A stretch of 64,000 nt of DNA from the NCBI RefSeq assembly GCF_900115865.1, contig NZ_FOXY01000003.1:62001-126000 (forward strand), written 5' to 3'. Both the position numbers and the translations under genes were made by a program. Of the stretch, positions 12,201 through 16,565 are shown piece by piece. This DNA is from Donghicola eburneus. Its GTDB lineage: Bacteria; Pseudomonadota; Alphaproteobacteria; Rhodobacterales; Rhodobacteraceae. The notes beneath the pieces are model-generated. The model saw only the letters and a program-made list of their open reading frames with translations, was not told the DNA's origin and did no database searches. Every line of letters begins with the position of its first letter. The first letter of the stretch is position 1.

Positions 12201-15200
12201 TTAGTCATCAAAGATGTCGTCGTTCCACGTGTATGTGCTGGACGGCGTGCTGTCCGGAAAGTCCAGTTCTGAAAACAGTGCATCCATTGCCGCGTCCCTC
12301 GGGGGCACGGGGGTAGGCACAGTCTCAGGTTCGGAAACCTCCTCCTCAAGTGCCTCCTCTGGTTTGACCGCCTCCATATGCCCGTGCGCTGGAATGTCCT
12401 TTAGAGCATCACGATTGATGCCCTCAGGAATCTTCTGCCCGGAAGACAGCTTCCTGAGGAGCAACATTTCCAACTTTGTAAGGCCAAGCTCTTGCGCTGA
12501 GGTCGCAGGTATGACTGCTTTCTCAGGCTCAGGCTCAGGCTCAGGCTCAGGCTCAGGCTCAGGCTCAGGCTCAGGCTCAGGCTCAGGCTCAGGCTCAGGC
12601 TCAGGCTCAGGCTCAGACTTCTCTGCAGCAAGTGGCGCCAGTGCTTCCAGAGCTTGCTCTAGCACCTCTGCTTCATTCACCTCATCCGCGACGAGCGCGG
12701 TGTGCAAATCGGTCTCGCTTTCGGTCTCATCGTCCGCGGCGCCAGCATCACCCAAAGAGAGCGGCTCGACGGTTATCTCTTCCGTAGCGATCGAAGCATC
12801 GCCTTCGGCTTCCACGATATCATGGCTCTCCGGCTCAAGACCCCTCGTATCCTCGAGCTGGTCAGAGAGTTCCGACAGTGGGTCTAGAGTATCGAAGGCG
12901 CAGTCGTGCGGAGCGGTATCGTCCTGTGCAGTCTCGGCACTTGCTTTTGACTGCGCGAACTGCGCGGGGTCTTGAGAAAGTGGTTGATCAACGTCTTCCT
13001 CGAGGTTCTGCTCGTCCTGCTCGTCCTGCTCGTCCTGCTCGTCCTGCTCGTCCTGCTCGTCCTGCTCGTCGGCCGAGGCGGGCGTAGCGTTCTCGATATC
13101 ATCGAAATCGCCAACGTCGTCTCCAAGTAAAGATGCGAAAACGGCGCCTTCATCCTCCTGCGAAACATTGGCCGCGTTGACGTTCCGGTCCACCGAGTCT
13201 GCGTCGGCTGGGAAGTTCTGATTTTCTGCCTCTCCAAGTGGCTGAGGCACGTCGTCTGCGACCAATGCGAACGCATCTTCGTCAACAACAGTCGGGATAT
13301 CCTCGGAGATTTCCTGCGAGTCTTCGATCCCACCAGCCAGGTCCGCACTCGGCTCGATTTCTTCAGAGGTCGGATGATCGGCTGCGTTGTTGGTGGAAGA
13401 CGTCTCGCTCTTTTCAAGATCCTCTGCAGCCGCGGAGGCGTCAATCTGAGCCGTCACAGTCTCTTCATCGCGTGTCGCAGGCTCGTCGATGAATGCTGCA
13501 AAGGGTTCAGCCTCATCAGACAGTGCGCCAGAGCTTTCCTCTAGAGCGTCTGCGATAGTAGGGTCTGTGTCTGATACCTCCGCCGGCTCTGATCCAGCGT
13601 CATCGAATTGGGCCATCAGATCGCTAACGTCGCTTGCTCCGGTATCACCGGGCATGGGGTCTTCGGCGACGGATTTTTCCTCGGCCCACGTGTCCGCAGC
13701 AATAGGCGTCTCAGCCAGCACGTCGTCTACGGCGTCTTGCGCCTCTGGCAGACCGTCTGACAGTGACTCTTCCTCAGCCGACGTGAGGTCAGTATCGGCA
13801 ACGTTCTCCGCAGCTTCTGGCTCTTCGTTCAGGTGAACCGCCTCAGTCTCTTCTGGATTTGTATCATCCGCGAATGCGGCAAACCCGTTCGACGCCAAGG
13901 CTTGCAGGTGAGCACTGCTTTCGGCGTCATTCACAGTCGACCCGATCTCAAATGGCTCGAACATCTCGTCATTGTCGCTGTCCGACCCCAATTCCATATC
14001 GTCTAGACCAGCCAGAGCCGCAAAGGGATCCGCGTCTTCCTCGTTATCCTCCTGATGCTCTTCAAACCCCTCGGGATCTGAAGTCTCGGCGGTGTCAGAG
14101 ACGACGGACTCATCGATATCTTCGGGACGGTCTGCTACCTCATCCGCAGGCGCAAGTTCAGCCAACTCTTCCTCGTTGGTCGTTGGGGCGGTCTCTTCTC
14201 CCTCTAGGTCTGCGAAAGCAGCAAACGGATCATCGTCTGCGTCGTCAGCGTCCTGCTCAGTCTCCGGCGTATCGAGATCGTCGTCCGCTTCTGTCAGTGC
14301 CGCAAAACCGCTCGCGGCCATGTTTTGCAGATGGGCGGTGCTTTCCTCTTCACTGGATGGCTTCGCCACCTCGAACGGTTCGAACATGTCTTCGTTCTGA
14401 TTCTCCGCGCCGATGCCTGTCTGCTCCATCTCCGCCAGAGCAGCAAAGGGATCATCCGCTTCTTCCAATTCAAAGGGATCACTTTCGGCGAGCGCCTCTG
14501 CGTTTTCCACAAGCTCTTGGCTGTCGTCCGCAAACTCAGCAGCAACCGCTTCAGGCTCATCCTCAGGCACAATAGCCGGCGCTTCCGAAGCCGCCTCGGC
14601 CTCTTCTTGCAGAGACAAGTCCACGGCCTCTTTTTCGGCATCGTCCAAATCTTCGGAAATTTGTGCCAATGCCTCTGGATCGCTTTCGAACGCAGCCAAC
14701 GCAGCAAGAGGATCTTCAGCTTCTGTCTCTGAAGTCGTTTCGTCCTCTTCTTCCAGTTCAGAAAATGGGTCGCCGCTCTCGTCCGCAAAAGCGGCGAAAG
14801 GGTCCTCAGCTGCCGGTTCGCCTGATGTGCCTTCTGGCGCATCCGGTGCAGCGTCGTCTTCTTTAAAAGCTGCGAAGGGATCGTCGCTCTCGTCTGCAAA
14901 TGCGGCGAACGGATCTTCTGCTTCCGGTTCGTCTGGCGTGCTTTCTGGTTCTGACGGTGCTGCGTCGTCTTCTTTGAAAGCTGTGAAGGGATCGTCGCTC
15001 TCGTCTGCAAAAGCTGCGAACGGATCTTCTGCTTCCGGTTTGGCTGGCGTGCTTACTGGTTCTTCCAGTGCTGCATCGTCTTCTTCAAAGGCCGCGAAGG
15101 GATCGTCGCTTTCGTCCGCAAATGCAGCGAACGGATCTTCTGCTTCCGGTTCGGCTGGCGTGCTTACTGGTTCTTCCAGTGCTGCATCGTCTTCTTCAAA

Positions 15201-16565
15201 GGCCGCGAAGGGATCGTCGCTTTCGTCCGCAAATGCAGCGAACGGATCTTCTGCTTCCGGTTCGGCTGGCGTGCTTACTGGTTCTTCCAGTGCTGCATCG
15301 TCTTCTTCAAAGGCCGCGAAGGGATCGTCGCTTTCGTCCGCAAATGCAGCGAACGGATCTTCTGCTTCCGGTTTGGCTGGCGTGCCTACTGGTTCTTCCG
15401 GTGCTGCATCGTCTTCTTTAAAGGCCGCGAAGGGATCGTCGCTCTCGTCCGCAAATGCGGCGAAAGGGTCCTCAGCTTCCGGTTCGCCTGGTGTGCCTAC
15501 TGGCTCAGCCGGTGCAGCGTCGTCTTCTTTGAGAGCTGTGAACGGATCGTCTCTCTCGTCTGCAAATGCGGCGAATGGATCTTCTGCTTCCGGTTTGGCT
15601 GGCCTGCTTTCTGGTTCTGCCGGTGCTGCATCGTCTTCTTTAAAAGCTGCGAACGGATCGTCGCTCTCGTCCGCAAATGCAGCGAAAGGGTCTTCGGCTG
15701 CCGGTTCGGCGGGCTTGCTCTCGGCCTCCGCAGGCGCGTCGGCGTCATTTTCGAACGCCGCGAACGGGTCGTCACCCTCATCTGCAAATGCGGCGAATGG
15801 ATCGTTTTCTTTGGGGGCTGCTTCCGCTTCCGCTGGCGTGTCATCAGCGGATGTGGCGTCTAACTCTCCGAATGCCGCGAAGGGATCGTCTCCGTCGTCT
15901 GCAAATGCAGCAAACGGGTCTTCGTCTTTTTTCGCTGCGGGGGCGGCAGCAGGGATGGCAGCTTTGGGGGTGTCATCCGAGAACGCGGCAAACGGGTCGT
16001 CGCCATCGTCATCACCGAAGGCCGCAAAAGGATCGTCGGATGCGGTTGGGCTATCCCCGCCGAGACCCGCGAGGGCGGCAAAGGGGTCTGGGGCCTCCTC
16101 TTCGGCTGGTGCTGGGGGCGCGGCAGTCGGGGCTGCAGCTGGGGTATCTTCGGGCTCGTCCTCGGCATCGAGATCGCCGAACACGTCAAAGACAGAGGGA
16201 TCGCTCAGATCCATCATGTCTAGCTTTGGCGCTTTCTTGGGCGGGGGCGGCGGTGCGGGTTCGGGCTCTGGGATAGGCTCGGGTTCCGGCACAGGCTCGG
16301 GCGCAGGTTTCGCAGCTTTGCGGCGCTTGGGCTTCTTTGGCGCGGGCTTTTCTCCTTTTAGAGCGTCCTGCAGCAGCTTTAGCCGTGCCTGCATCAGCAG
16401 GTTGCGGCGCGCTGGGTCATTCTCTTCTTCATAGAGATCGGCCAGAGCCTCGGCTCCGACGAGCGGTTCGACACCGCGCATCTTGCTCAGAATCTTTGTC
16501 ATCGGCTTCACTTTACGTGTGCCGGTGCTCTTGGTGTCTGAACTTCCCGATTTGGCCGAGGTCAT
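12201..16565 (-). CDS. Giant acidic repeat protein next to the flagellar genes (unknown function)
   Basis: I do not recognise this 1454-residue protein. Residues about 20-95 are basic and helical ([10 protein letters not shown], then [17 protein letters not shown], then a [10 protein letters not shown] stretch). A proline-glutamate linker follows, then a very long acidic, probably disordered region built on the motif DPFAAF, including at least eight 37-residue units. Near the C-terminal end are seven EQD tripeptides, then about sixteen EP dipeptides, a short helical patch ([15 protein letters not shown]) and an acidic tail ending DDIFDD. No signal peptide or membrane segment is visible. The start at 16565 has AGGAG eight bases upstream; the ATG at 16601 has none. 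It is divergent from flgB, and a sigma-54-like site lies on its strand, so co-expression with the flagellum is possible. A scaffold or polar-organising role is only a guess. Confidence 0.8.
12522..12616 (-). repeat. Hexanucleotide tandem repeat (Glu-Pro run)
   Basis: About sixteen uninterrupted copies of CTCAGG on the + strand, read on the minus strand as alternating Glu-Pro codons inside the giant acidic protein. The unit is a multiple of three, so gain or loss of copies would change linker length without a frameshift. Confidence 0.95.
13008..13071 (-). repeat. Nine-base tandem repeat (Glu-Gln-Asp run)
   Basis: Seven near-perfect copies of a 9-base unit (CTGCTCGTC on the + strand) that encode consecutive Glu-Gln-Asp tripeptides in the giant acidic protein. 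Like the neighbouring hexanucleotide run it keeps the reading frame whatever the copy number. Confidence 0.93.
14800..15735 (-). repeat. 111-bp tandem repeat array coding 37-residue DPFAAF units
   Basis: Equivalent positions recur at 14848, 14959, 15070, 15181, 15292, 15403, 15514 and 15625, each exactly 111 bases apart. Each unit encodes 37 residues with two DPFAAF-type motifs ([12 protein letters not shown], then DPFAAF and an acidic-proline spacer). The units starting near 15070, 15181 and 15292 are almost identical in DNA, which points to recent duplication or gene conversion; outer units have diverged (for example DPFTAL, DPFSEL). Confidence 0.93.

Follow-up and report, generated by a model that had tools for sequence, protein, structure and literature searches.

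The window analysed here is a stretch of 64,000 nucleotides from the alphaproteobacterium Donghicola eburneus (assembly GCF_900115865.1, contig NZ_FOXY01000003.1, positions 62,001 to 126,000 of the forward strand). On its minus strand, divergent from the flagellar gene flgB, lies the gene of an acidic repeat protein of 1454 residues. This protein, disordered over most of its length, represents the greatest enlargement within an undescribed family found beside flgB in many marine bacteria. It is very probably flagellar and co-expressed with flgB. Its mode of action is proposed more tentatively: the sequence makes it plausible that a docking N-terminal domain and a multivalent tail serve the assembly or the motor function of this flagellum.

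The gene is an uninterrupted open reading frame (ORF) of 1466 residues when read from its first ATG (12201-16601), or of 1454 residues from the ATG at 16565 (12201-16565). The latter appears to be the better start, because it is preceded by AGGAG at 16574-16578 and because the upstream ATG (16599-16601) falls within the -24 part of the flgB promoter. The 1454-residue protein contains 30.5% Asp plus Glu and 4.0% Lys plus Arg, with a net charge of -386 and an isoelectric point of 4.05. DPF occurs 29 times, compared with a mean of 1.19 and a maximum of 6 in 2000 composition shuffles of the protein, and DPFAAF occurs 22 times. The highest 19-residue Kyte-Doolittle mean is 0.77 and, therefore, a membrane segment is not expected. 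The nonsynonymous and synonymous substitution rates (dN and dS) against Donghicola mangrovi are 0.17 and 1.22 for the N-terminal part (dN/dS about 0.14) and 0.39 and 1.57 for the C-terminal part (dN/dS about 0.25). These low ratios, typical of purifying selection, confirm at the sequence level that the ORF encodes a real, constrained protein. The Pfam-A search of the protein gave zero matches. NCBIfam matched only low-complexity sequence at or near the EP run (internalin K, DNA polymerase III gamma/tau and TonB), and these matches were dismissed as compositional. Both the acidic DPF-repeat ORF described by a first-pass annotation of this DNA and its label of unassigned protein are therefore upheld. 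FlgM was rejected as an identity, since PF04316 is missing and the FlgM of the genome lies elsewhere (C14:130769-130924). FliK was likewise rejected, the PF02120 C-terminal domain being missing and the FliK of the window lying at 45685-47634.

The family opened up because the search went by position beside flgB, after the terminal pieces of the protein had found little. Among 198 genomes of the same taxonomic family, the N- or C-terminal piece retrieved the same-genus genome and one weak N-terminal match, in Thalassococcus halodurans (expect value, E, of 0.005), whose gene is likewise divergent from flgB. The search by position used FlgB alignments, which gave 80 named loci (the best 80 of 537), and an unselected FlgB search, which gave 24 matches in 23 of 394 genomes of the same taxonomic family. 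A divergent ORF was counted when it had at least 90 codons and a start 5-60 nucleotides from the flgB sigma54 site. Such an ORF is present in 102 of the 105 loci, the window included, some of the loci being duplicates of each other. The other three are L032 and L055, where the contigs end just upstream, and L083. In the unselected search, all 24 loci carry the divergent ORF and 21 of them match the family profiles at E<=1e-3. Overall, 96 of the 105 loci match the profiles, in counts that are not independent because many matching loci built the profiles or are close copies.

The profiles fall into two classes, A and B, described below. Profile A3 was built from 20 of 26 class B segments, with L037 and L038 shortened and with L030, L032, L041, L044, L054 and L070 omitted as near-copies, truncated or poorly aligning. 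A4 comprises 22 of 35 aligned class A sequences. A5 leaves out L080 and L088, which contain unreadable residues, and A6 leaves out L032; for L016 and L017, the proteins were trimmed to the starts proposed for them. The window protein scores 71.5 bits with A3, a profile built with the window included. The Octadecabacter arcticus protein OA238_RS27295 (WP_015497672.1, plasmid pOA238_118), absent from profile building, scores 38 bits with A4 and its gene shares the overlapping sigma54 pair. This protein, annotated as a hypothetical protein, is encoded divergently from flgB as the window protein is, but it is class A-like, short (213 residues) and devoid of DPF-kind repeats.

Genome-wide searches with the N-domain profiles tie the family to flgB. 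The class A profile gave 10 matches in 385 alphaproteobacteria: all of the 8 reaching E<=1.3e-17 face flgB divergently, and the 2 weak ones (E 0.001 and 0.008) do not. The class B profile gave 21 matches in 295 genomes of the same taxonomic family. The 9 with E<=4.3e-6 are again all divergent from flgB, as is L141 alone among the 12 weaker ones; L149, another of these, has a 26% FlgB-like match nearby that was not counted. Strong matches thus stand beside flgB in 17 of 17 cases, and the window genome has a single copy by the class B profile. The class A profile found nothing in 299 genomes across the phylum, a weak negative given that the same profile also misses the window genome. The tie to flgB noted in the first-pass annotation is stronger than it stated (24 of 24 loci, 17 of 17 strong matches), and the refuting outcome that it had named, homologues scattered away from flagellar genes, did not appear in the genome-wide examination. 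A literature search that most subscription papers lay beyond found neither a description of such a protein nor one of a sigma54 promoter shared with flgB.

The family-defining part is a three-helix N-terminal domain (N-domain) of about 55 residues. In class A, from SAR116-type and other alphaproteobacterial bins and some Rhodobacteraceae, the N-domain is accompanied by a small beta domain, and most members also have an acidic tail. Class B, from Rhodobacteraceae including the window, continues from the N-domain into a Pro/Glu-rich tether and a short motif around a Leu that is invariant in 25 aligned class B sequences. In the AlphaFold model this core motif is partly helical, with a helix at 104-113 of the modelled fragment that is of low confidence. 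The N-domains of the two classes align with each other (hhalign of A3 and A4, probability 95.1, P 3e-8) and both are modelled as a helix, a helix and a long helix, the block means of the predicted local distance difference test being 86-95 over the first 50 residues of the window protein. The helical N-terminal domain noticed at first pass is thereby supported. A sequence search of the PDB gave no significant match (best E 0.057 with A5 and 0.12 with A3). The small beta domain of the class A relatives resembles the bL9 N-terminal domain (Foldseek probability 1.00, E 0.18), the lambda gpFI C-terminal domain (probability 0.98, E 0.74), DUF7302 (5.5e-5) and DUF7210, both below cut-off, and phrog_2616 (1.5e-5), a functionally uncharacterised family; no such domain was recognised in the window protein.

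The promoter between the two genes is the second constant element. A sigma54 site, defined by at most one mismatch to TGGCAC-N5-TTGC with GG and GC required, lies 47-145 nucleotides 5' of flgB in 80 of 80 named loci. Promoters were counted as distinct 35-mers (71) or 28-mers (62) from these loci and the window. At exactly +13, an opposite-strand site that shares the TTGCAA -12 element scores at least 8 of 10 in 58 of the 71 distinct sites, while each other offset from -10 to +40 gives 0 or 1 of 71. Such an overlapping partner accompanies only 2 of the 109 perfect sigma54 matches in the rest of this DNA. In the 28-mers, TTGC is always followed by A, conservation of the CC in the reverse -24 element is 90-94% and the reverse site reaches at least 8 in 50 of 62. 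The overlapping pair of the window spans 16596-16623, with a reverse site of 8/10. The divergent start codon lies mostly 18-46 nucleotides from the site and is accompanied by a Shine-Dalgarno sequence. Of the 13 sites without an overlapping partner, 8 carry a separate opposite site of at least 8 between the genes. The occurrence of the pair at these loci (58/71) and elsewhere (2/109) makes co-expression with flgB likely: the divergent gene and the rod-hook operon are probably transcribed in common, from a two-way sigma54 promoter whose two sites overlap, which agrees with the shared promoter region first suggested for the two genes.

A perfect minus-strand sigma54 match also lies inside flgB (16837-16851), pointing at the divergent gene. 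It is common to D. mangrovi and occurs in no other of the 80 loci when the stretch is scanned with at most one mismatch. The match was set aside because of this confinement.

The tails vary as much as the N-domain is constant. They were surveyed in 78 proteins, from 77 named loci and the window, 7 of the 77 ending at contig ends. The median length is 250 residues, 22 proteins have at most 200 residues and the shortest has 130. Internal repeats have a period of 37 residues in the window protein, 149 in D. mangrovi, 49 in Thalassococcus, 52 in Thalassovita, 50 in Gemmobacter and 40 in a Rhodobacteraceae bin, and the tails are read, from sequence, as having expanded repeatedly and independently. 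Among the proteins surveyed, DPF forms clusters in the Donghicola pair alone (29 and 38 copies), and DPF[AST] does not exceed two copies in any other. The tails of the relatives carry other acidic-hydrophobic repeats or motifs, or are short with one short motif. By eye, the element that persists across tails is a short acidic-hydrophobic motif and not DPF itself; DDFFGDD-like tail ends are also seen in several class B relatives. The DPF repeats are, by this sequence comparison, a Donghicola expansion at the level of the genus. Eukaryotic endocytic adaptors display Asp-Pro-Phe clusters in a disordered chain, and in this the window protein resembles them. However, the window protein is not known to have a partner like the adaptor appendage domains, and among the proteins surveyed DPF clusters are confined to Donghicola. 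The endocytosis parallel drawn at first pass is reduced to a single genus because the other relatives lack DPF clusters, and DPF did not hold up as the functional key; endocytosis and a pole organiser remain analogies.

The flagellar setting was defined by domain searches. Rod-protein matches occur on two contigs, C14 and C23, and therefore the genome has two flagellar sets. The set of the window comprises flgB, C, D, E, F, G and H, flgK, fliD, motB, flhB, fliP, fliM, fliL, fliK, fliI, fliH, fliG and fliF, together with genes for a sigma54 factor, a sigma54 activator and CheA- and CheW-type proteins. Outside the window are flgA, flgM, flhA, fliA, an LPP20-type (FlgP-like) protein and a FlgT_N match below its cut-off. 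Judged by this gene content, the flagellum would be of the type of Rhodobacter (Cereibacter) sphaeroides Fla1, a type termed fla3 in PMC12363192. In R. sphaeroides, RSP0032-RSP0084 is described as the functional flagellar set (PMC3024229). RSP_0083 is flgB and the adjacent number, RSP_0084, is a hypothetical protein; like flagellar genes, it is tabulated among those that increase with the small RNA UdsC (log2 2.86) and decrease when UdsC is deleted (-1.81) (PMC9779115). RSP_0084 thus resembles the window gene in being numbered next to flgB and in changing together with flagellar genes.

Other flagellar proteins can be compared. MotF, an accessory protein of the same flagellum type in R. sphaeroides, has a mass of 24 kDa, crosses the membrane at residues 54-74 and extends into the periplasm (PMC7277832). 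The window protein lacks a hydrophobic or membrane segment and its identity with MotF was rejected. CP1-CP4, which belong to the archetypal fla1-type flagellum of Rhodobacterales, are likewise lineage-specific, functionally uncharacterised proteins from a flagellar cluster, but they are reported as exclusive to fla1-type clusters (PMC12363192) and are set apart by that description.

In the explanation that we favour, the window protein would be a cytoplasmic accessory protein of a gamma-like (fla3-type) flagellum, made together with the rod-hook operon from the two-way sigma54 promoter. The N-domain may dock on a conserved component produced at the same stage, either the export gate or C-ring, or the rod/hook subunits, and the disordered tail would present weak acidic-hydrophobic motifs to a partner. 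One or a few motifs would be enough in most species, and Donghicola would have multiplied them into dozens of DPFAAF copies. A broader formulation is doubtful and is offered as a conjecture: a palindromic two-way promoter (TGGCAY-N5-TTGCAA-N8-CCA), kept from Rhodobacteraceae to SAR116-type alphaproteobacteria, would tie the rod-hook operon firmly to flagellar hub proteins of a new family. The disordered tails of these hubs would have grown, several times and independently, into multivalent arrays of acidic-hydrophobic motifs, and such arrays would gather a motor or export partner at the base of the flagellum. The family adds a near-constant, unnamed partner gene to the flagellum type of which R. 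sphaeroides Fla1 is a well-studied example, and the role of this gene is therefore open to direct test. The overlapping pair would be a clean, conserved two-way promoter, while sigma54 is usually pictured with one-way promoters. The series from 130 to 1454 residues offers a natural way to ask how a flagellar protein benefits from repeated motifs.

Several observations weigh against this explanation. Three of the 24 loci from the unselected search (L107, L110 and L115) carry a divergent ORF without a profile match at E<=1e-3. L083, from a Rhodobacter metagenome-assembled genome, has the paired sigma54 site 5' of flgB and no recognisable divergent family ORF, by either real loss or misassembly. 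Five of the 71 distinct sites (L035, L041, L053, L078 and L086) have no good opposite sigma54 site. Foldseek gave no match at E<=0.001 to the model of either class, and the N-domain thus has no significant structural likeness. Multivalent action is suggested by the repeats alone and most family members are short. RSP_0084 is a predicted member, judged by its gene number and not by its sequence, and the authors' sentence on motility-clustered hypothetical genes does not name it (PMC9779115).

The alternatives concern mainly what the protein binds. It is unlikely, though less so than the other alternatives, that the protein is a cytoplasmic chaperone or charge shield whose N-domain binds subunits of the FlgB/C/D/E type and whose acidic tail keeps them soluble until export. 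Likely co-expression with the rod-hook operon, strong acidity and the lack of a membrane segment would all suit such a role. However, nothing links the protein to a particular subunit, and the flgB of other flagellum types manages without the family, which has no match in most genomes searched. Regulators are often divergent from their targets, and with its conserved shared promoter the gene might encode a regulator or feedback sensor of the sigma54 genes of this flagellum, made in step with the rod-hook operon. This is improbable: family searches found no DNA-binding or sigma-binding family, and separate FlgM and FliA are present in the genome.

The tail motifs could instead bind CheY or another response regulator, as the N-terminal peptide of FliM (LSQxEIDxLL) and the C-terminal peptide of CheZ do. 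Some class B motifs, such as SLEDAAKMLMAGGDDEE, may resemble the FliM peptide, but DPFAAF itself fits poorly and little probability is given to this binding. Export through the flagellar apparatus as an axial or extracellular part deserves equally little. The first 20 residues are disordered and Ser/Thr-rich and the chain is long and repetitive, as a secreted part might be; on the other hand, Pfam finds no rod, hook or flagellin domain and the cluster already holds a FliK with a hook-length domain. The pole organiser imagined at first pass, an acidic hub by analogy with PopZ, is very improbable. An acidic disordered region with structured ends and the single, subpolar Fla1 flagellum of R. sphaeroides (PMC7277832) would be compatible with it, but the family tracks one flagellum type and not cells generally, and no homology to PopZ was found, the Pfam scan being empty and PopZ homology not having been searched by name. 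A composition-driven frame in a non-functional gene, for which the further long frames on the opposite strand of the same DNA (as expected for repeats) might speak, is already refuted by the conserved start, Shine-Dalgarno sequence, N-domain and C-terminal patch and by the dN/dS ratios.

The features of the divergent gene and its promoter are listed in the table. The C-terminal helical patch has no match outside Donghicola in the 198 genomes of the same taxonomic family.

Table. Positions in the window of the acidic repeat protein gene, its parts and its neighbouring elements.
Feature	Position	Strand	Basis
Coding sequence of the 1454-residue acidic repeat protein	12201..16565	-	Open frame, AGGAG 5' of ATG 16565, constrained against D. 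mangrovi; stop codon included
N-terminal domain, residues 20-72, three predicted helices, family-defining	16350..16508	-	AlphaFold; hhalign to class A
Basic patch (residues 76-87), then Pro/Glu-rich tether (to residue 113)	16227..16340	-	Tether common to class B
Class B core motif, residues 114-133, partly helical in model	16167..16226	-	Alignment of 25 class B sequences
DPF-rich region, residues 160-851, 29 DPF	14013..16088	-	Motif count
37-residue tandem array, residues 255-601 (about 347 residues), ends approximate	14763..15803	-	Repeat analysis
Two copies of MFEPF...SSAHLQ..A..GFAA motif (14295-14390 and 13872-13967)	13872..14390	-	Similar repeat in D. mangrovi, by eye
EQD run, residues 1167-1184	13014..13067	-	
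EP run, residues 1318-1348	12522..12614	-	
C-terminal helical patch, residues 1356-1395	12381..12500	-	Kept in D. mangrovi
Acidic-aromatic C-terminus ending NDDIFDD	12204..12296	-	D. mangrovi end is NYDIFDD
Shine-Dalgarno AGGAG of the divergent gene	16574..16578	-	
Sigma54-type promoter of flgB, TGGCATGGCACTTGC	16596..16610	+	Equivalent in 80/80 named loci
Overlapping sigma54-like site for the divergent gene, TGGTCTGGGAATTGC, common -12	16609..16623	-	Scores 8/10
flgB, constant neighbour	16674..17057	+	Pfam and NCBIfam FlgB

Some further genes of the flagellar clusters are unusual. The flgK of the window (23315-27436, plus strand) encodes 1373 residues, with FlgK ends and a Flagellin_IN motif within a long middle part, and the gene at the hook-protein position in Octadecabacter has 4233 bases. 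Of the two minus-strand ORFs at 37897-38619 and 38616-39455 in the flagellar cluster of the window, one has a weak PDZ match and the other no significant match; the cluster ORFs at 34605-36269 (minus) and 39556-40116 (plus) are unmatched in Pfam at E<=1. An ORF between flhA and fliA (L156, 9804-10853, plus strand), without a Pfam match at E<=0.001, occupies what we take to be the position expected for FlhF and is perhaps a decayed or very divergent FlhF.

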